From NCBI RefSeq assembly GCF_011299595.1, contig NZ_CP049867.1:868001-932000 (forward strand): a stretch of 64,000 bases of DNA, read 5' to 3'. The stretch is from Nocardioides sp. HDW12B (GTDB lineage Bacteria > Actinomycetota > Actinomycetes > Propionibacteriales > Nocardioidaceae). The notes under the pieces are model-generated. The model worked only from the letters and a program-made list of their open reading frames with translations, ran no database searches and was not told the origin of the DNA. This document shows, in pieces, positions 1,137 to 11,048 of the stretch (position 1 is its first letter; each line of letters opens with the position of its first letter). The position numbers and the translations under genes were made by a program.

Positions 1137-1272
1137 CTAGAAACGCTGTGAGGTTGGCACGCGTTGGCGGACGGGACCCTGGCGAGGTCCGACCGACCAC
1201 GCTGAACCCGACGGATTGCTCGTCCCTTGCAGGGATCGGCGACAGGGCCCGGCCCTCAGGAGGGTTTCGTAT

Positions 1273-1278
1273 TACACT
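1273..1278 (+). promoter_or_regulatory. -10 element of the toxin-hsdR operon
   Basis: TACACT lies six bases before the GTG at 1285, which would place the transcription start on or next to the start codon (a leaderless mRNA). The surrounding TATTACACTTGCGC stands out against the GC-rich background. No convincing -35 box or ribosome-binding site is visible. Confidence 0.45.
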
Positions 1279-1284
1279 TGCGCT

Positions 1285-1545
1285 GTGCTTCGAATCCGTG
1301 ACTCGGCTCTACGTCACGGCTGTTCTAGGGAGGACATCTCTCATGCATACGACCTGTTCCTGATTGACCGGGTAATCGAGCCCGACACAGAACCGCCGAA
1401 GTTGTTGTTCGTCGGACCCGACGAGGCCGGGAACCTGCTCGAACTTGTCGGCGGTGAATTGAATGGCGAACTCTGGATTTGGCACGCGATGAAGTGCCGG
1501 CCGCAATACCTACAGCTTCTCGCCGGGGCGGGAAGGAAGCGATGA
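1285..1545 (+). CDS. Small toxin-like protein upstream of RHH antitoxin domains
   Basis: This 86-residue protein resembles small actinobacterial proteins that sit directly upstream of ribbon-helix-helix antitoxins (a BrnT/DUF4258-like look). It has an N-terminal RIRDSALRHGCSREDI.HA stretch, a short strand-rich middle (LLFVGP, LLELVG) and a C-terminal HAMKxRxxYLxLL motif. Family membership is judged by pattern only. I chose GTG 1285 because it starts the conserved region and follows a -10 box; an upstream in-frame ATG at 1216 adds 23 unlike residues. The TGA overlaps the ATG of the next gene (ATGA), the usual arrangement of coupled toxin-antitoxin genes. Partners of this kind are usually RNases, but no activity can be proven here. 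Confidence 0.65.
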   Translation: MLRIRDSALRHGCSREDISHAYDLFLIDRVIEPDTEPPKLLFVGPDEAGNLLELVGGELNGELWIWHAMKCRPQYLQLLAGAGRKR

Positions 1546-4523
1546 ACGAGAGGAGCTTCACCACGGAAACTGGTCACGTTCTCACGGACAACGAACTCAA
1601 CGCGCTCGCTGAAGAGGCTGAGCGCGGATACGACGTGACCAAGATGGTGCGCCGTCCTGGCCGTCCTCGCATGGGATCGGCTCCTGCGGCCCCGGTCCCG
1701 GTTCGGATGCCGGAAGACCTGCACGAGGCTGTGAAGGCACTCGCTGAGGCGGAGGAGACGTCAGTGAGTGAGCTCGTGCGTGACGCGCTAAGCGCTTACC
1801 TGCGGACCGAGGTCCCGCCACAAGTGCACGATCTCCACGGGCAGCCCGACAGCGAGGCAGCGATCCTCGCTCTAGTGGAGGAAGCAGAGTCTGGGTATCC
1901 CCTTGGCTCGCTTCAAAGGCGTCGCGGCTCGCGACGCAAGGGGCGAGCGCGCGTGTTCCCGGTACGGATGTCGCCGGAACTGCAGTCGGCAGTGGAGGCA
2001 CGGGCCGAGGCAGAGATGACGTCAGTGAGCGAGGTTGTCCGAGCGGCCCTTCGAGCGCGCCTCGAGAACGGGGGCGGGTCTGGACCACCAGGTGGGGGAG
2101 GAGCACACGCTACGCAGCACAGTCCCACCGAGGCGGACACTTGCCGCGACTATGTCTTACCGCGGCTGAAGGAAGCGGGCTGGGACGAGAGTCAGATCGT
2201 CGAGCAGTACCGAATCACGGACGGTCGGATCACCACTGTCGGCAAGAATCACCGACGAGCTATGCCGCTACGTGCGGATTACGTCCTCGAGTACCGACCG
2301 GGGCTGCCCATCGCAGTTGTCGAAGCGAAGCGCTACTACGCGATACCGGGCAAGGGCATGCAGCAGGCCCGGCGCTACGCCGGACTGCTGGACGTTCCGT
2401 TCGCCTACGCGACGAATGGCCGCGGCATCGTGGAGGACGACCGCAACACTGGTATCGAGCGAGCGGACATGGTCGGCTTCCCATCGCCCGACGCGCTATG
2501 GGCGCGGTACCGGGAATGGAGGGGGATCAATGAAAGCCCTGCCGCAGGCGAGGGCTTACTGATTCCGTTCAATAGGGATCTTCGGAACCCTGACGGCTCA
2601 GTCAAGGAACCCCGGTACTACCAGCGCACTGCGGTGAACCGCGCGGTCGCTTCCACTTTGAAGGGCGACAAGCGGCTCCTGCTCACGATGGCGACCGGGA
2701 CGGGAAAAACCTTCGTCGCTATGCAGATCGTATGGAAGCTGTGGAACGTTGCGTGGCGCCCGGGGCGGAATCCGCGAATCCTCTATCTAGCAGACCGGAA
2801 CATCCTGATCGACCAGCCGATTGAGCGAGAGTTCAAGCCTGCGTTCGGCTCCGGCGCAGGGTCCCCCATCTGGAAGCTGCAGGGCGAAGCCAAACTCGGT
2901 CGCGAGATCTACTTCGGCCTGTACCAGCAGCTTGCTGAGACGCGGAGCGACGATCCGATGTTCCGGCGCTACCCCAAGGACTACTTCGACCTCATCATCG
3001 TGGACGAGTGCCACCGTGGCAGTGCCCGAGCTGAGTCGTCTTGGCGCGCAATCCTTGAGTACTTCGCCAGCGCAACTCAGATCGGAATGACCGCGACCCC
3101 GAAGCGAGACGAGACGGTTGACACCTACGACTACTTCGGCGGCAAGCCACTGTTCGAATACACCCTCGCTTCAGGCATCGAGGATGGCTTCCTCGCGCCC
3201 TATCGAGTCCGTCGCGTGGTCCTTAGTCCAGACGCGCTGGGATGGACACCAACCAAGGGGCAACTGGACCTCCACGGTAGGGAGGTACCCGCGGGCTTGT
3301 ACTCGACAAAGGACTTTGAGCGCGTGGTTTCCCTGTTGTCACGAACCGAGGCGGCGGCGAAGCATCTAACCGACTATCTGCGCCGTACCGATCGCATGGC
3401 AAAGACGATCGTGTTCTGCGTGGATCAGGAGCACGCGGACCAGATGCGTCGCGCGATTCACAACGCCAACAGGGACTTGACCAAAGAGCATCCCAACTAC
3501 ACGGTTCGGATCGTGAGCGACGAGGGGGTCGTTGGCCAGGGCCACCTGAGCGACTTCGCGGATACGGAGCGAGAGTTTCCGGTGATCGCGACAACCTCTG
3601 AAATGCTCTCTACAGGCGTGGACGTTCCGACCGTGCGGAACATTGTCATCTTCCGCACCATCGGTTCGATGGCTCTCTTCAAGCAGGTCATTGGCCGAGG
3701 AACCCGCCTATTCCCGGACGAGGACAAGCTGTCCTTCGAGATCATTGACTACTCCGGCGCTACCGCTCTCTTCAGTGACGCGGAGTTTGACGGCCCGCCC
3801 GAGAAGGTGGTCCGCGAGGAAGTCGATGAGCACGGCGATGTAGTCGACAGCGCTGGGTCCGAGACGACCGAACCGGAGACAGAACCTGCTGGTCCTGCTG
3901 CCATTCCCAGCGACCCGGGGATCACTCCAGAGGACCTTGAGGGCGAGCCCCATTCGAAGTTCTACATTGACGATGCGCAGGTGTGGGTGACCGCTGAGGC
4001 CACTTACCAGCTCGATTCGGAAACCAACCGGCTTCGCCTCGTCGCGTACCGGGACTTCGTCGCCGAGACGGTGCGGGCACTGTTCCCCGAACCCACGGAA
4101 CTTCATTCGCTGTGGATGAGTCGCGTCGGTCGGAAGGACGTGCTCGAAGCCCTGATGGCTCATGGGATCGACGCGGATGAGATGATCGACCGAACGGGCC
4201 TTCGCGACGCGGACCCGCTCGATGTCTTGGTCCACTTAGCGTGGAACCAGCCACTTCGCAGTCGGTTGGACCGTGCACAGAGGGTTCGCCGAGACCGCGT
4301 GGCGTTCTTCGAGGAGTACCAGCCTGCCGCTCGGGAAGTCCTAACAGCTCTCCTCGAGAAGTACGCGCAGCACGGGATTACTGAGCTAGATGATCTGCAC
4401 GTGCTGCAGGTACCACCGCTTTCTAAGCTCGGGACGCCTGCCGAGATCGCCTCAAGGTTTGGCTCGCCAGCCGCCCTCCGGGCGGCCGTGGCTCGTCTGA
4501 GTGAACTTGTGTACGTCGCCTGA
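1542..4523 (+). CDS. hsdR: Tandem RHH antitoxin domains fused to type I restriction subunit HsdR
   Basis: This 993-residue protein begins like a stand-alone RHH antitoxin: an acidic start with ERGYDV, a GRPRMGS segment, and an RHH domain at residues 52-87. The same block recurs, diverged, at about 110-174 (second RHH at 139-174). A glycine-rich linker (177-187) leads into a normal HsdR. HsdR features are the PD-(D/E)xK nuclease (D246, E261-A-K263), Walker A TGTGKT 385-390, DECH 488-491, TATP 517-520, TGVDVP 691-696 and QVIGRGTR 715-722, then a C-terminal helical region. The frame is continuous, and no ATG, GTG or TTG occurs between the second RHH and the nuclease, so a separate HsdR start is unlikely. 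HsdR translocates DNA with ATP and cuts it. The RHH part may bind the operon promoter and neutralise the upstream toxin-like protein. Confidence 0.85.
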   Translation: MNERSFTTETGHVLTDNELNALAEEAERGYDVTKMVRRPGRPRMGSAPAAPVPVRMPEDLHEAVKALAEAEETSVSELVRDALSAYLRTEVPPQVHDLHGQPDSEAAILALVEEAESGYPLGSLQRRRGSRRKGRARVFPVRMSPELQSAVEARAEAEMTSVSEVVRAALRARLENGGGSGPPGGGGAHATQHSPTEADTCRDYVLPRLKEAGWDESQIVEQYRITDGRITTVGKNHRRAMPLRADYVLEYRPGLPIAVVEAKRYYAIPGKGMQQARRYAGLLDVPFAYATNGRGIVEDDRNTGIERADMVGFPSPDALWARYREWRGINESPAAGEGLLIPFNRDLRNPDGSVKEPRYYQRTAVNRAVASTLKGDKRLLLTMATGTGKTFVAMQIVWKLWNVAWRPGRNPRILYLADRNILIDQPIEREFKPAFGSGAGSPIWKLQGEAKLGREIYFGLYQQLAETRSDDPMFRRYPKDYFDLIIVDECHRGSARAESSWRAILEYFASATQIGMTATPKRDETVDTYDYFGGKPLFEYTLASGIEDGFLAPYRVRRVVLSPDALGWTPTKGQLDLHGREVPAGLYSTKDFERVVSLLSRTEAAAKHLTDYLRRTDRMAKTIVFCVDQEHADQMRRAIHNANRDLTKEHPNYTVRIVSDEGVVGQGHLSDFADTEREFPVIATTSEMLSTGVDVPTVRNIVIFRTIGSMALFKQVIGRGTRLFPDEDKLSFEIIDYSGATALFSDAEFDGPPEKVVREEVDEHGDVVDSAGSETTEPETEPAGPAAIPSDPGITPEDLEGEPHSKFYIDDAQVWVTAEATYQLDSETNRLRLVAYRDFVAETVRALFPEPTELHSLWMSRVGRKDVLEALMAHGIDADEMIDRTGLRDADPLDVLVHLAWNQPLRSRLDRAQRVRRDRVAFFEEYQPAAREVLTALLEKYAQHGITELDDLHVLQVPPLSKLGTPAEIASRFGSPAALRAAVARLSELVYVA

Positions 4524-4547
4524 TCGGACGAAGGAGTACGGAAACCC

Positions 4548-6626
4548 TTGACGGGAAAGAAGCGGACTGGATCGCCAACTTCGCCTCAAGCGAAGTTGGG
4601 GGGACTGATCAAAGCTGCGCGCGATGCGATGCGTAAGGACGCTGGTCTGAACGGCGACCTGGATCGCATACCTCAACTGGCGTGGCTCCTGTTCCTTAAG
4701 GCGTTCGACGCCCTTGAAGAGAACCGCGAGATAGTCGACGAGTCCTTCCGGCCATCAATCGAGGCGCCATATCGCTGGCGCGACTGGGCGGCAGACCCAA
4801 ATGGAGCCACTGGCGACGCACTACTGAAATTCGTTGACGGGTCGCTGTTGCCCTACCTGCGTGGGTTGAGCGGAGCGGGTGCTCACGATCCACGTGACGT
4901 CCTGGCTGCGGTCTTCAAGGAGACAAACAACCGTATGGTCTCGGGGTACCTACTCCGAGACGTCGTCAACAAGGTGAGTGAGATCAATTTTGCGTCTTCG
5001 GACGACATTCACACGATGGCGCACCTGTACGAGTCCATGCTGCGAGAGGTACGGGACGCGGCCGGCGATTCGGGCGAGTTCTATACCCCCCGACCCGTGA
5101 TTCGATTCATCACGCAACAGGTCGATCCCAAGTTGGGCGAGGTTGTTCTCGACCCCGCCTGCGGCACCGGGGGATTCTTGGTAGAGGCCCTCGAGCACAT
5201 GTCGATTGACGTGGAAACTGCCCGCCAGGGACAAGCATTGCACCAGGACCTGCGTGGCATTGAAAAGAAGCAGCTCCCGTTCCTGCTGGGCATGATGAAC
5301 CTCGTCCTGCACGGTGTCGGGCAACCCAATCTCGTACGCGGAAATGCGTTGTCAACGCCAATAACGCAGATCGGCAAAGCCCAGCGCGTGGATGTCGTCT
5401 TAACGAACCCTCCGTTTGGCGGTGCCGAGGAGGCGACTATTCAAGCCAACTTCCCGGCCGGTAAGCGCACGGCAGAGACTGCGTGGCTTTTCATCCAAGC
5501 AGTGATCCGTCGGTTGAAGGATGGAGGACGTTGCGGAATTGTCGTGCCAAACGGTGTTCTCTTTGGGGACGGCGTCGGAGCCAAGATAAAGCAGCAACTT
5601 CTTGAAGAGTGCAACTTGCACACAGTGTTGCGGCTTCCGGCTGGCGTCTTTGAGCCCTACACCGATATTCCCACAAACGTGCTCTTCTTTGATAAGGGGA
5701 GCCCGACCAAAGAAGTCTGGTTCTACCAGATTACGCCTCCCGAGGGGCGAAAGAAGTACACGAAGACGAAGCCGATGCACTTCGACGAATTTGCTGAATG
5801 CCAGGCCTGGTGGAGGGAACGCGCGGAGAATTCGCATGCTTGGCGGGTCCCTGTCCCCGACATCGAACAGAGCAACTTCAACCTGGACTTCCGAAACCCT
5901 CACTCGCCTGACGACCTCGCCCACCGCGCCCCACTCGACCTGATAGGTGAGGCCCTTGCGGCGGAGCGACAGCTCGTGACGCTCCTTGAGAAACTCGGCG
6001 CGGAGTCGTCCGCCGCCGTCGAGCCGGCCACGGCGGAAGACCGCAGGGCAGCGGGTTGGACTGAGGTGAAACTCGGTGACTTCCTGCGGGTAAAGTCGTC
6101 GACGGTATCGGTGGACCCGTCAGCCACCTACAAGATCGCCGGGGTCTATAGCTATGGCCGCGGCCTTATCGACCGCGGCGAGCTCCTCGGCTCAGAGACT
6201 TCGTACACGACCCTTGGGCGGCTCGAGAAAGACACGGTCGTCATCAGCAAGCTCGGTGCATGGGAGGGGGCTGTCGCAGTTGTAAGCGACCCATTCGCGG
6301 ACTACTACGTGTCGAGCGAGTTTCCACGCTTCGAGTTCTATTCCGACCTCACCGACGCGGCCTTCTTTGCTGGCCTCGCTCACTCGCCCTCATGCTGGGA
6401 AGCGATCGATCGAGTAACCCGAGGAAGCATGGCGCGCCGCAAGCGCACTACGCCTACACAGTTCCTTGAGACCCGTCTCTGGTTGCCTCCCAAGCCTGAA
6501 CAAGCCCGAGCGACGCGGCGACTAGCGTTGATCCAGCAACTGCGAGCGCCGCGCGATCTGGCCACCACCCGTCAGGATGCCCTTGCGCCATCAATCTTCA
6601 ACGGCCTCTTTTCAGGCGCGCGCTGA
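4548..6626 (+). CDS. hsdM: Type I methyltransferase HsdM fused to one HsdS-type target recognition domain
   Basis: This 692-residue protein joins an HsdM N-terminal helical domain (about 1-160), an N6-adenine methyltransferase domain and a specificity half-domain. The methyltransferase carries GEFYTPR 176-182, motif I DPACGTGGF 202-210 and catalytic NPPF 287-290. After about residue 500 one HsdS-like TRD begins (WTEVKLGDFL) and ends with a helix-rich tail. Normal HsdS has two TRDs; a single fused TRD implies a dimer reading a symmetric or half-repeated site, as in some type I and IIB/IIG-like systems. The start is TTG 4548, eleven bases after AAGGAG (4531-4536). It lies 24 bases after hsdR, so one operon. 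There is no separate hsdS. Confidence 0.88.
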   Translation: MTGKKRTGSPTSPQAKLGGLIKAARDAMRKDAGLNGDLDRIPQLAWLLFLKAFDALEENREIVDESFRPSIEAPYRWRDWAADPNGATGDALLKFVDGSLLPYLRGLSGAGAHDPRDVLAAVFKETNNRMVSGYLLRDVVNKVSEINFASSDDIHTMAHLYESMLREVRDAAGDSGEFYTPRPVIRFITQQVDPKLGEVVLDPACGTGGFLVEALEHMSIDVETARQGQALHQDLRGIEKKQLPFLLGMMNLVLHGVGQPNLVRGNALSTPITQIGKAQRVDVVLTNPPFGGAEEATIQANFPAGKRTAETAWLFIQAVIRRLKDGGRCGIVVPNGVLFGDGVGAKIKQQLLEECNLHTVLRLPAGVFEPYTDIPTNVLFFDKGSPTKEVWFYQITPPEGRKKYTKTKPMHFDEFAECQAWWRERAENSHAWRVPVPDIEQSNFNLDFRNPHSPDDLAHRAPLDLIGEALAAERQLVTLLEKLGAESSAAVEPATAEDRRAAGWTEVKLGDFLRVKSSTVSVDPSATYKIAGVYSYGRGLIDRGELLGSETSYTTLGRLEKDTVVISKLGAWEGAVAVVSDPFADYYVSSEFPRFEFYSDLTDAAFFAGLAHSPSCWEAIDRVTRGSMARRKRTTPTQFLETRLWLPPKPEQARATRRLALIQQLRAPRDLATTRQDALAPSIFNGLFSGAR

Positions 6627-6805
6627 AGGGTGCGACCCGGGGGGATGACCCCCCAAGGGTCGCTGCGACATCGGAGGTGGACAGCCGCTCACACATTGCC
6701 ACGGTTTCAGGGTCGTTTTTCTAGGCCAGCCAGGGCCATGTTCGCTTCCAGTCCTGCCCAGAACCGTCGTGTCGTGTCACTGAATCAAATGCAAGGGCGC
6801 GCGGT

Positions 6806-7666
6806 TCAGCGCGACCACGGGTGCCAAGCAAGCAGCGCTGTAATGATAACGCTGGCGACAAACAACACCGTTACGCCCGTCGGGAACGGTCCTCGACCCA
6901 GGGTGGCGGTCCGATTTTCCGCGTCGAAGAGAGGCGCAGATTCCTCGCTGCCAGCATAGAACGACTCCACCGTCATGCCCTCGCGGGAAGGGGTGCCTTT
7001 CAGTCGCACGTGCACTTCCTTTTCGGCGGCGTGATCTGCAACCTTTATCAACCACGCGCGGACCCCGGCCATTTCGTCGTCGTTCGCCAACGACTCCGCC
7101 AGATCGCGGAGTTCTGTAGGCGAAAATATCCGTCCGTCCTGCGTCTTCAATACCAGCCTCTTGCCGAAGCGATCTATCGACTTGAAGCGATACACGATGA
7201 CTTTGCCGAACGAATCAAATACGACCAGTCCTTTCGCCTGCGCGACTCGAGGGTCAAGTGAGTAGTGGAAGGTCGCATCCTTCGCGATTTCTAAGTGCAC
7301 TGGAAGGTCTGTAATGGGACTTGGAGGCGTTGGGTAGTCGTCGCCCCGGAAGCCGTAACTTTCACCATTGCGTACTTTATCCCCCCGCAGGCGCCAACGG
7401 GAGAGCCAGCCAGTCTCATGGACGAACATGATTCGCTCGAGGCCAACGGGACGTCGTCCAGTGTTCACGCACTTTATAGTTATTCCAGGCGTTGGATAAC
7501 CGATCCATTCGACGCGGATCTTGAGGCGGTAGCGATCGCGGTATATTGCCACCGCACTGAGTAGCGTCGACACGATGGCCGCATAGGCCGCGATAGCTAT
7601 CGTTACGAAGTCAAATGCGTTCGTGGTCTTGTCCACACGGAGACTGTACGCGGGCGCTCGGCCCAT
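6806..7666 (-). CDS. Two-TM membrane protein of the restriction island, function unknown
   Basis: This 286-residue protein is convergent with hsdMS and is the last gene of the island. A hydrophobic segment lies near residues 20-41, followed by YRDRYRLKIRVEW and a mainly beta-strand middle domain. A second TM segment lies near the C-terminus (about 260-282) and ends in HPWSR. The layout resembles small two-TM proteins of phage-defence loci, but I recognise no named domain. Codon usage is island-like (many A/T third positions). It could be a defence effector, an immunity protein or an unrelated passenger. The ATG at 7666 is assumed. Confidence 0.6.
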   Translation of the reverse strand: MGRAPAYSLRVDKTTNAFDFVTIAIAAYAAIVSTLLSAVAIYRDRYRLKIRVEWIGYPTPGITIKCVNTGRRPVGLERIMFVHETGWLSRWRLRGDKVRNGESYGFRGDDYPTPPSPITDLPVHLEIAKDATFHYSLDPRVAQAKGLVVFDSFGKVIVYRFKSIDRFGKRLVLKTQDGRIFSPTELRDLAESLANDDEMAGVRAWLIKVADHAAEKEVHVRLKGTPSREGMTVESFYAGSEESAPLFDAENRTATLGRGPFPTGVTVLFVASVIITALLAWHPWSR

Positions 7667-7768
7667 TCCGAGTGGCCGGTTGCAATGGAACAGGGCTTGC
7701 CACGCAACGAGCCAGTGGGGCTTCGGTGGAGGGTCAAGGCACCCACAGCAAGGTGCGGCTGCTACGGA

Positions 7769-7782
7769 TTCGCGTTCTGGCC
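7769..7782 (+). repeat. Right boundary repeat of the island (attR-like)
   Basis: TTCGCGTTCTGGCC is the second copy of the repeat at 1110-1123, with one mismatch at the tenth base. GC-rich, tad-type sequence resumes immediately to its right. Confidence 0.75.
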
Positions 7783-7813
7783 CGGCGTCGTCGGGCTGCG
7801 CCTGACGACGTGA
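7769..7813 (+). pseudogene. tadC: Stranded native 3' end of tadC
   Basis: These codons read FAFWPGVVGLRLTT and then TGA. This is the expected tail of an actinobacterial TadC and continues the island-proximal TTVMFAF of the left copy. It has no start of its own and is not translated as part of tadC. It marks where tadC ended before insertion, 54 bases before the DUF4244 gene. Confidence 0.8.
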
Positions 7814-7867
7814 CCCGCCGGTGACCCTGTGGCCCGGCGCCCCGACCTGTCAACGAAGGAGAACTCC

Positions 7868-8087: not shown

Positions 8088-8498
8088 GTGCCCGCACCCG
8101 GTCCTGCCCGCAGCCTTCTCCGAGGCGGGGAGCGCGGCGCCGCGACGGTGGACTTCGTCCTCGTCGTGGTGGTCGTGGTCCCGTTGTTCCTCGGCATCCT
8201 CCAGGTCGGCCTCGTGCTCCACGTGCGCAACACCCTCACCTCCGCGGCGTCGGAGGGTGCCCGGTACGGCGCCCGGTTCGACCGTGAGCCGTCAGACGGC
8301 GCGGCCCGCGCCCGTGAGGCTGTCTCCGACGCCGTGTCGGGCCGGTTCGCGCGCGACGTCACCGCCCGGCGTACGACGCTGCAGGGCGCGCCCGCGGTGA
8401 CGGTCGAGGTCCGCGGGGAGGTGCCGGCGCTCGGGCTCTTCGGGCCGGCGTGGCCGGTGCGGGTGAGCGGCCACGCCGTGGAAGAGGTGGCGCCGTGA
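8088..8498 (+). CDS. tadE: TadE-like pseudopilin
   Basis: This 136-residue protein has a short basic leader with GGERGAATVDFVL followed by one hydrophobic helix (about 19-40) and the S.ASEGARYGA pattern typical of TadE/TadE-like minor pilins. It is predicted to be anchored in the membrane with its C-terminal domain outside. GTG 8088 lies two bases after the restored DUF4244 stop, and the gene end overlaps the next start (GTGA), so the tad genes are tightly coupled. Confidence 0.8.
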   Translation: MPAPGPARSLLRGGERGAATVDFVLVVVVVVPLFLGILQVGLVLHVRNTLTSAASEGARYGARFDREPSDGAARAREAVSDAVSGRFARDVTARRTTLQGAPAVTVEVRGEVPALGLFGPAWPVRVSGHAVEEVAP

Positions 8499-9381: not shown

Positions 9382-10599
9382 TCAGCAGCCGGCCGGGCTG
9401 ACGCCCAGCGCGACGGTGCATGCCGAGGGCTGGGCCGGATAGCCGGGATCGCCTCGCGGCCCGCGGGGTCCGCGAGGGCCCGGCTCGCCGCGGTCGCCCT
9501 GCGGCCCGCTGTCGCCACGCGGCCCGGGGGCGCCAGGCGACCCCTCGTCGCCCTCAGGACCTCGCTTCCCGCGCTGCCCCCGGTCACCCTCGGGACCCTT
9601 GTCCCCGCGAGGTCCGATCTCACCCGTCGCCCCCGGGTCCCCGCGCGGCCCCTTGTCGCCGGGTGGTCCCTTGACCCCTCGAGCGGGCACTACGGACACC
9701 TCGGTGTCACCGTCCCCGCACGACGGGGCGTCCGGGTAGGTCACCTGGCCGGTCGGAGCGAGGCAGGCGATAGTGGCGTCCTCGCGGAGGTCGTCGGAGT
9801 CAGGACACGTGGGGAGCTTCTCGCCGAGGATCCACCCGGCGACCCTAAAGAGCGGTGGAGCGTCCAGTCGGTACCACGAGTCCGGACGGTCGCAGAGGAC
9901 GCGAGCGCCGACCGCAGGCAGCATGACCACGGCCGGGTCGTCGTCGGGATTGTTGGAGTCGGTCAGCAGGACAGGCGTGAAGTCACCCTCCTGCCCCAGG
10001 ACGTAGCCGTCGTACGCCGTCCCGTCTACGGCGACGACGCGCTCGTGAGGAAGCCAGGGGGTACTCAAGAGCGGCGCCGCGATCACCGTCAGTGTGACGA
10101 GCGACAGGGCTGCGAGGACGATGGGCACACGTCGGGAGAGCCGTGCTTGGTCACTGGGGTTCATCCGCCGCCACGCCCATAGCAGAATCAGCAGAGCGGC
10201 AGCCACCGCCGTCACGGTCCACGGACTGAGCATCAGCGCGACGAAGGCGACGAGCGGCACGCCGAATCGCAAGCCGATCAGAGAACGACGGCCTGCGCCC
10301 TGTCCGAGGAGGCCCCAGACGTGGGGGGTCCAGCTCACGAAGCCGACCACGACGCTCGCAACCAGGACGAGCAGCGTCGCCTCGACGAAGAGGGAGCTGA
10401 GGGCGGCCTCGGCGATGCCGGAGACCCCCATCTGGCGGACGATCTCGAGCGCGACCTCGCGGTCGAAGCGCGCGAGCACGAGGATGCGGAGCGCGAGGTA
10501 GATCGGCAGCACCGCGACGGCCACCCGCCACGCCCGTCCCCAGCCGGCCCACGAGACGGACCACGGCTCGGGACGGTCGAGGCGCGGGGTGAGGCTCAC
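9382..10599 (-). CDS. Multi-pass membrane protein with C-terminal collagen-like Gly-X-Y tail
   Basis: This 405-residue protein has at least five hydrophobic segments in its first 190 residues, then a compact extracellular part with four cysteines. A run of about 26 uninterrupted Gly-X-Y triplets follows (about residues 308-385, bases 9445-9678), rich in GPR, GDR, GPE and GDK. The cap is a short cysteine-containing tail. Collagen-like runs in bacteria form trimeric rods, often surface-exposed; trimerisation here is inference. GTG 10599 overlaps the preceding stop (GTGA) and directly precedes SLTPRLDRP; a longer frame upstream lies inside the previous gene. It is the third gene of a leftward operon. 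I recognise no named family for the membrane part. Confidence 0.7.
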
Positions 10600-11048
10600 G
10601 GGTTCTGCGGATCCGATCCCGCCGTCTCGGCCCCGTCGGATCGCTCGTCTTGGACGGGCCGGGCCACCCATCGGTGGACCCGGTGCACCGGCCAGCCGTC
10701 CTCACCGCGCAGCCGGACGCCCGGGTGGGGATCTCGGATCCGGCGGGACAACGGCGTACCGGGGTCCCACATCTTTCGTGACGGCTGCTCGGAGTCGAGC
10801 CGGTCGATCCACTGCCCGACCTCGGCGTAGGACGAAAAGGTGAGGTGCAGCTCGTAGACGACGGCCTCACCTGCGAGCAACGGCTGGAACAGCTCCGCGG
10901 CCGACGGTGACTGCCGAGGCTCCGCGACGAGGGACTCTCCAAGGGCGAGCAGCGACGTCGCGGCCTCACGGTCGTCACGCGGGACCTCGTAGCGCAGCAC
11001 CAGCCGGACCGAGGAGGCCCGCTCGCCGGGCTCGATGTTCACGCGCAT
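10596..11048 (-). CDS. Hypothetical protein, middle gene of the collagen-tail operon
   Basis: This 150-residue, probably cytoplasmic protein has no signal peptide or TM segment. It shows mixed alpha/beta character with many arginines and a C-terminal HRVHRWV region. The ATG at 11048 overlaps the upstream stop by one base (TGATG), and its own stop overlaps the next start, so all three genes appear translationally coupled. No known domain was recognised. Confidence 0.6.

Follow-up and report, generated by a model that had tools for sequence, protein, structure and literature searches.

Two ribbon-helix-helix modules fused to the restriction subunit HsdR behind a RelS-like toxin gene: a candidate toxin–antitoxin module joined to a type I restriction operon in Nocardioides

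Introduction

Can the antitoxin of a toxin–antitoxin pair become a physical part of a restriction enzyme? Surveys of the RelE and HicA families describe toxin–antitoxin fusions and a fusion of SMC with HicA (PMC11980606, PMC10865869), and the word HsdR is absent from their main texts. BrnT-type and other pairs are reported to adjoin type I restriction systems in islands of the E. coli type (review PMC12707154). The question is raised by a locus of Nocardioides sp. HDW12B, for which an initial annotation made from the DNA letters proposed that a small toxin-like gene is followed by a single ORF in which two antitoxin modules of the ribbon-helix-helix (RHH) type continue into a complete HsdR. 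The antitoxin would thus be carried by the restriction subunit itself. We have re-examined the locus and searched for its relatives.

The window, i.e. the whole stretch of 64,000 nt that was analysed, covers positions 868,001–932,000 of NZ_CP049867.1, the single contig of a 4.19 Mb genome. All coordinates are relative to the window.

Results

The operon lies on an island inserted in a pilus locus

The features of the locus are the following, with the basis of each assignment in brackets:

1137..7867, no strand, lower-GC island inserted in a Tad pilus locus (GC profile, comparison with congeners)
1265..1278, + strand, TTTCGTATTACACT, promoter/operator-like motif of the toxin–RHH family (20 bases before the toxin start)
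1285..1545, + strand, RelS-like toxin gene, 86 aa, GTG start (RelS homology)
1542..4523, + strand, RHH1-RHH2-linker-HsdR fusion, 993 aa (ORF, domain matches, alignment with the L002 locus)
1542..1832, + strand, RHH1 module (arm and ribbon-helix-helix), residues 1–97 (domain matches)
1833..2069, + strand, RHH2 module (arm and ribbon-helix-helix), residues 98–176 (family comparison)
2070..2126, + strand, Gly/Pro-rich linker, residues 177–195 (ORF, alignment)
2127..4523, + strand, complete HsdR of the EcoAI/FtnUII family (NCBIfam; Pfam HSDR_N, ResIII and EcoEI_R_C)
4548..6626, + strand, HsdM fused to one HsdS half, TTG start, TRD at about 6066–6536 (domain matches)

The GC content of the island is 0.56–0.67 in steps of 500 bases, whereas that of the flanks is 0.73–0.78. 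On the left the T2SSF gene of the Tad locus, recognized by a Pfam match, ends at 1136; on the right a small gene without Pfam match begins at about 7868 and is followed by TadE at 8088. Since the Tad genes on both sides are direct neighbours in 4/4 other genomes of the genus, the island is an insertion. Its + strand carries ORFs of 86 aa, 993 codons and 692 codons, and a re-check of the ORFs gave the coordinates and lengths originally annotated, including the ATGA overlap in which the ATG of the fusion lies over the stop codon of the small ORF. The minus strand of the right end of the island contains an ORF of 286 aa (6806–7666) with no match in Pfam or PHROGs. The C-terminal part of a further minus-strand ORF of 429 aa (9382–10671) consists by eye of a collagen-like Gly-X-Y repeat.

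The 86-aa protein is homologous to the toxin RelS

The 86-aa protein has no match of its own in Pfam, NCBIfam or PADLOC. A profile built from 25 members of its family, on the other hand, matches the RelS toxin (PDB 9SDC) with E=2.3e-14, and the window toxin on its own does so with an E value of 2.3e-5. A PHROG called toxin is matched by 21 of the 25 members. The set leaves out L013 and L031, which are split or broken, the weak L016, duplicates and 13 weaker loci (L044–L056), while L074 and L075 were fetched later and stand outside it. RelS is of proven toxicity, adopts a fold like that of RelE and BrnT and cleaves 16S rRNA within the anti-Shine–Dalgarno region; the mutants K9A, H10A and H64A are described as having lost most of their toxicity (PMC13284704). 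At these three positions the window toxin has Arg, His and His. Within the family of 25, position K9 is occupied by Lys in 22 proteins and by Arg in the other 3, H10 is His in 24, and H64 is His in all 25. On this homology the 86-aa protein, initially described as toxin-like, is a member of a proven toxin family.

The sole exception at H10 is the toxin of a second fusion locus, L002 (L002:4167-4424), which has Lys, Arg and His at the three positions and may be inactive because Arg replaces the catalytic His10. Of all observations, this one speaks most strongly against a reading of the operon that centres on the toxin.

An assignment to BrnT was considered and rejected, as nothing in the window passed the Pfam BrnT cut-off; 6/25 family members match this model weakly, with a best E value of 0.005. 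A Foldseek search of the PDB with a model of the toxin (mean pLDDT 52) gave no match at E<=0.001, the best one (0.29) being unrelated, in a PDB set up to 8 April 2026 that may lack RelS; with a model of such low confidence this result carries no weight.

Two RHH modules are continuous with a complete HsdR

Both N-terminal RHH copies that had been recognized in the 993-codon ORF were recovered, Pfam RHH_1 matching twice with the second copy at about residues 137–172. Both modules also retain the arm found ahead of the RHH in free-standing antitoxins. The HsdR part is indeed complete: residues 196–991 align with positions 2–767 of the 768 in the NCBIfam model of EcoAI/FtnUII HsdR (NF046051; 912 bits, with the cut-off at 550). 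A separate start for the nuclease had been considered absent, and in the window there is in fact no in-frame ATG, GTG or TTG between codon 162, inside RHH2, and codon 241, inside the nuclease; the start-like codons 138, 143, 151, 159 and 162 all lie inside RHH2. In the L002 fusion the linker contains GTG codons, at 203/204. A structure model of RHH1, RHH2 and the start of the nuclease, computed from a two-row alignment, has a mean pLDDT of 40 and gives only a rough placement of helices.

Downstream, the predicted HsdM-TRD protein was likewise recovered, HsdM and one HsdS half forming a single ORF of 692 codons. A complete HsdS with two TRDs is thus not present, only a single half fused to HsdM; a Rhizobium relative of the HsdR has a separate HsdS of 385 aa. 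It is possible that two such halves would together make a symmetric target. The fusion of HsdM with an HsdS half is not common to both fusion loci, L002 having HsdM and an HsdS-like ORF apart.

Free-standing relatives pair the toxin with the same RHH family

A toxin homologue was found in 42 of 246 genomes of the class, and 30 of the 51 places with such homologues were taken as loci, the window's own among them. In the 16 loci with a strong toxin match (E <= 5e-23; L027, L028 and L030–L043, the window excluded) an RHH gene of the same family is adjacent in every case, whereas none of the 13 weaker loci (L044–L056) has one beside the toxin. The toxin family is therefore not tied to RHH throughout, and the partners in the weaker loci may be of another kind. 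When RHH matches were the starting point, the toxin adjoined in 8/9 loci (weakly in L016; L014 is without), and the plasmid loci that were fetched have it beside the RHH gene in 3/3 cases; L028 and L010 are one and the same locus. Either gene can come first in the free-standing pairs. A toxin gene next to a gene of a DNA-binding antitoxin family, the arrangement of a type II toxin–antitoxin system, is thus found.

In the NCBI annotation, the two proteins of one free-standing pair appear as 'ribbon-helix-helix' and as 'toxin'; in another pair, the toxin is listed as a 'hypothetical protein'. A 2.7-kb plasmid from an uncultured bacterium (L022:35-516) carries a toxin that is unannotated in the listed record, together with a diverged RHH partner. 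A first toxin scan of viral contigs gave nothing; a later scan gave L075, with a toxin followed by an RHH gene (L075:2894-3415), so that phages may be a vehicle of the free-standing pair.

The two modules of the fusion are the only strong members of the RHH family in the genome that holds the window, a third match being weak (E=6e-4). The original proposal that an antitoxin resides in the restriction subunit is supported in so far as the RHH modules belong to the family usually found next to close relatives of the toxin.

A family motif precedes the toxin gene

The motif TTTCGTATTAC occurs upstream of both fusion operons and of most free-standing pairs. In the two fusion loci the same 14 bases, TTTCGTATTACACT, lie at the same distance of 20 bases before the toxin start, and close variants are found near the first gene of most free-standing pairs, whichever gene leads. 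At least 10/12 positions of the consensus TTTCGTATTACG are matched in 22 of 29 loci and in 0 of 1902 control windows, where it is the contrast with the controls and not the exact score that counts as evidence, the consensus having been read from the loci on which it was scored. Among free-standing loci 20/27 reach this value (the misses are L008, L009, L015, L016, L022, L039 and L042), and the window motif matches 11/12 of the family consensus. The window version has no second copy in the genome, even with one mismatch allowed, and is therefore not a general promoter. A promoter had been expected near 1260–1290, and the motif at 1265–1278 falls within this interval, although a sigma-70 scan called no promoter at the motif. 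There are no inverted repeats of 8 or more bases at the promoter. The TACACT within the motif could be a −10 box of an mRNA that starts at the toxin GTG; the toxin gene looks leaderless, while the antitoxin-HsdR gene has a Shine–Dalgarno sequence.

The fusion recurs in a distant genome

A search for further N-terminal RHH-HsdR fusions with the upstream ORF, which the initial annotation had advised, led to L002, a contig of a Mycobacterium MAG with the same order: a toxin-like gene, an RHH-RHH-HsdR fusion and HsdM, followed by an HsdS-like ORF as a gene of its own. Its fusion has 1007 aa and is 69% identical to that of the window, and the toxins are 66% identical. L002 may be situated on a mobile element, as the ORFs upstream in this contig have matches in phage families, one for replication initiation and one for a WhiB-like regulator. 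Trees join the window and L002 for the toxin (support 100/99), for HsdR (100/98) and for RHH1 (96/81), whereas the two RHH2 modules do not group together. The simplest reading would be one ancestral fusion, with the origin of RHH2 unsure.

Between the two loci amino-acid change is lower than silent change for the toxin (dN and dS, respectively, of 0.26/1.42), RHH2 (0.43/1.11), the nuclease (0.18/1.33) and the rest of HsdR (0.21/3.4). For RHH1, the linker and HsdM dS is saturated; the linker has diverged, its 19 aligned codons giving a dN of 1.33 and its alignment containing 16 gap columns.

Within the sets searched, the fusion was found in two genomes only. The window fusion is confined to its own genome among 293 genomes of the order, 394 of the class and 396 of the phylum, and that of L002 to its own among 301 of its family and 296 of its order; these sets overlap, and 6–8 candidates per genome were scored in most searches. 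Other genomes above threshold (14, 3 and 5 in the order, class and phylum searches) matched through the RHH alone or the start of HsdR. In one of them, L025, the match extends into the RHH2 region across three stop codons and no RHH was found there. A pattern scan of genome contigs, which required exact stretches of 8 residues, gave three relatives with the L002 fusion among them. Matches were seen in 50 of 72,556 plasmid records and in one phage, none covering 80% of the query, and no fusion was seen in either set. Viral contigs gave no fusion either, the whole-fusion query leading to 7 loci that match its RHH end only. The HsdR belongs to the same family (NF046051) as that of the EcoAI/FtnUII type I systems, but 13/13 unfused relatives examined, mostly with 1.5 kb on each side, have neither RHH nor toxin nearby.

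In the open-access literature (PMC), no antitoxin-HsdR fusion is described among the matches listed. To this extent the earlier statement that no example had been described still stands; L002 nevertheless provides a second natural example.

Discussion

The architecture is rare but recurrent, and its parts come from known families. As judged from these sequences, the best explanation is a type II toxin–antitoxin module that has merged with a type I restriction operon. RelS homology, the pairing with RHH genes in the family and the upstream motif make the RHH part very probably an antitoxin and autorepressor, and we put the probability that it is the cognate antitoxin/repressor of the toxin, now carried by HsdR, at roughly 0.85. 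As for the toxin being held by HsdR as an intact chain, the odds are somewhat better than even.

The binding, neutralisation, repression and trigger that we infer would proceed as follows. RHH antitoxins bind DNA as paired dimers. In the fusion, both modules would pair within one chain and bind TTTCGTATTAC, such that a single HsdR could bind DNA alone and repress its own operon. The arm before each RHH would hold and silence the toxin, which would be harmless only while HsdR is present; the arms might cover the active site of the toxin, as the first helix of the antitoxin RelI covers that of RelS (PMC13284704). The odds that these two activities are combined in the intact chain appear about even. 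If HsdR were lost, be it by loss of the gene, phage anti-restriction or degradation of the ClpXP type, the operon would be derepressed, the toxin freed and translation stopped. The outcome would be addiction to the restriction system as well as a second line of defence once restriction has been overcome. This scheme may also contain a latch: if the toxin cuts the anti-Shine–Dalgarno region as RelS does, synthesis of antitoxin and HsdR would stop while that of the seemingly leaderless toxin would continue.

Type I enzymes are inhibited by phages. In E. coli, the HsdR subunits of types IA and IB are degraded by ClpXP during restriction alleviation (PMC3874165, PMC12707154), as is that of EcoKI (PMC4231737); type IB has EcoAI as its prototype (PMC3874165, PMC12707154). 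By analogy with anti-restriction, which acts as the trigger for PrrC in the EcoPrrI system, ClpXP degradation or phage inhibition of the type I enzyme could be the trigger here; that HsdR loss is the biological trigger seems to us a tentative proposition, with slightly less than even chances. The strictest version, in which HsdR is at once nuclease, repressor of the operon, the toxin's only antitoxin and its own guard, any removal of it freeing the toxin, is rather doubtful.

The known systems resemble the locus in different respects. RelS–RelI (Rv2663–Rv2664) has a homologous toxin and the toxin gene first, but as described in the cited source RelI is an HTH-like antitoxin of a distinct type, neither RHH nor joined to a restriction enzyme, and the authors state that they found no inverted repeats upstream (PMC13284704). 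An antitoxin of the RelI type is thus not what the window contains, its candidate antitoxin being RHH. BrnT–BrnA also has the toxin first and an RHH antitoxin second, and BrnT and RelS are reported to have fold and catalytic positions in common (PMC13284704), although the window toxin is without a Pfam BrnT match. The free-standing actinobacterial pairs, e.g. on the Rhodococcus plasmid pLP337, contain the same toxin and RHH families and the same motif but a single RHH module and no restriction enzyme. EcoPrrI–PrrC is similar only in the way it works, a translation-stopping nuclease being silenced by a type I enzyme (PMC3874165, PMC12707154); PrrC is an unrelated anticodon nuclease, and the HsdR has no antitoxin domain. 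The island with RptR, a type I system and DarTG2 places a toxin–antitoxin pair and a repressor within a type I operon, but these are separate proteins and RptR is not RHH (PMC12255303).

Several alternatives have to be weighed. The RHH pair might have been captured for regulation only, making HsdR an autorepressor that limits restriction, for instance on entry into a naive host, with the toxin mainly a co-repressor and a weak or dead poison. Such a role would be in line with the motif conserved in both fusion loci, with the L002 toxin without an H10 equivalent and with the existence of dedicated repressors of type I operons such as RptR (PMC12255303). We consider it unlikely, since the window toxin retains H10, H64 and a basic residue for K9, the toxin has diverged between the loci under purifying constraint (dN 0.26, dS 1.42) and both RHH modules have kept the arms of free antitoxins.

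The fusion might also act as a polyprotein, in which a protease cuts the flexible linker to yield an ordinary RHH-RHH antitoxin and HsdR, the fusion serving to fix their ratio and timing. In its favour, the linker is Gly/Pro-rich and diverged, but no cleavage motif is conserved by eye and the frame is open across the linker in both loci, which makes processing improbable. RHH modules generally bind DNA and could merely tether HsdR to it or bridge subunits, with the toxin as a hitchhiker, but this is very improbable given that toxin and family motif accompany the fusion in both loci. Finally, a sequencing or assembly error that joined two genes, which the initial annotation had named as a possible refutation and for which nothing but the rarity of the fusion speaks, can practically be dismissed because the genome is a single contig and an independent MAG assembly (L002) contains the fusion in frame as well, 69% identical to that of the window.

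The merged toxin–antitoxin and restriction module remains the best explanation even though Arg at H10 in L002, the absence of same-family RHH at all weaker loci and the different antitoxin of RelS speak against it, as do structure models of low confidence, a motif consensus taken from the scored loci, the small number of two fusions and possible cleavage of the linker. A guard or addiction function, which we infer, is the leading and best-fitting reading: its recurrence in another, distantly related bacterium is suggestive of a system that would poison the cell if its cutting subunit is lost.

In the cases known from the cited work antidote and nuclease are separate proteins, whereas here they seemingly form one chain, and the question whether losing restriction stops the cell would become addressable through a single protein. 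The locus offers a concrete case in the debate on whether toxin–antitoxin modules serve defence or addiction, and it shows a route by which the promoter motif of an antitoxin can come to precede a restriction operon.
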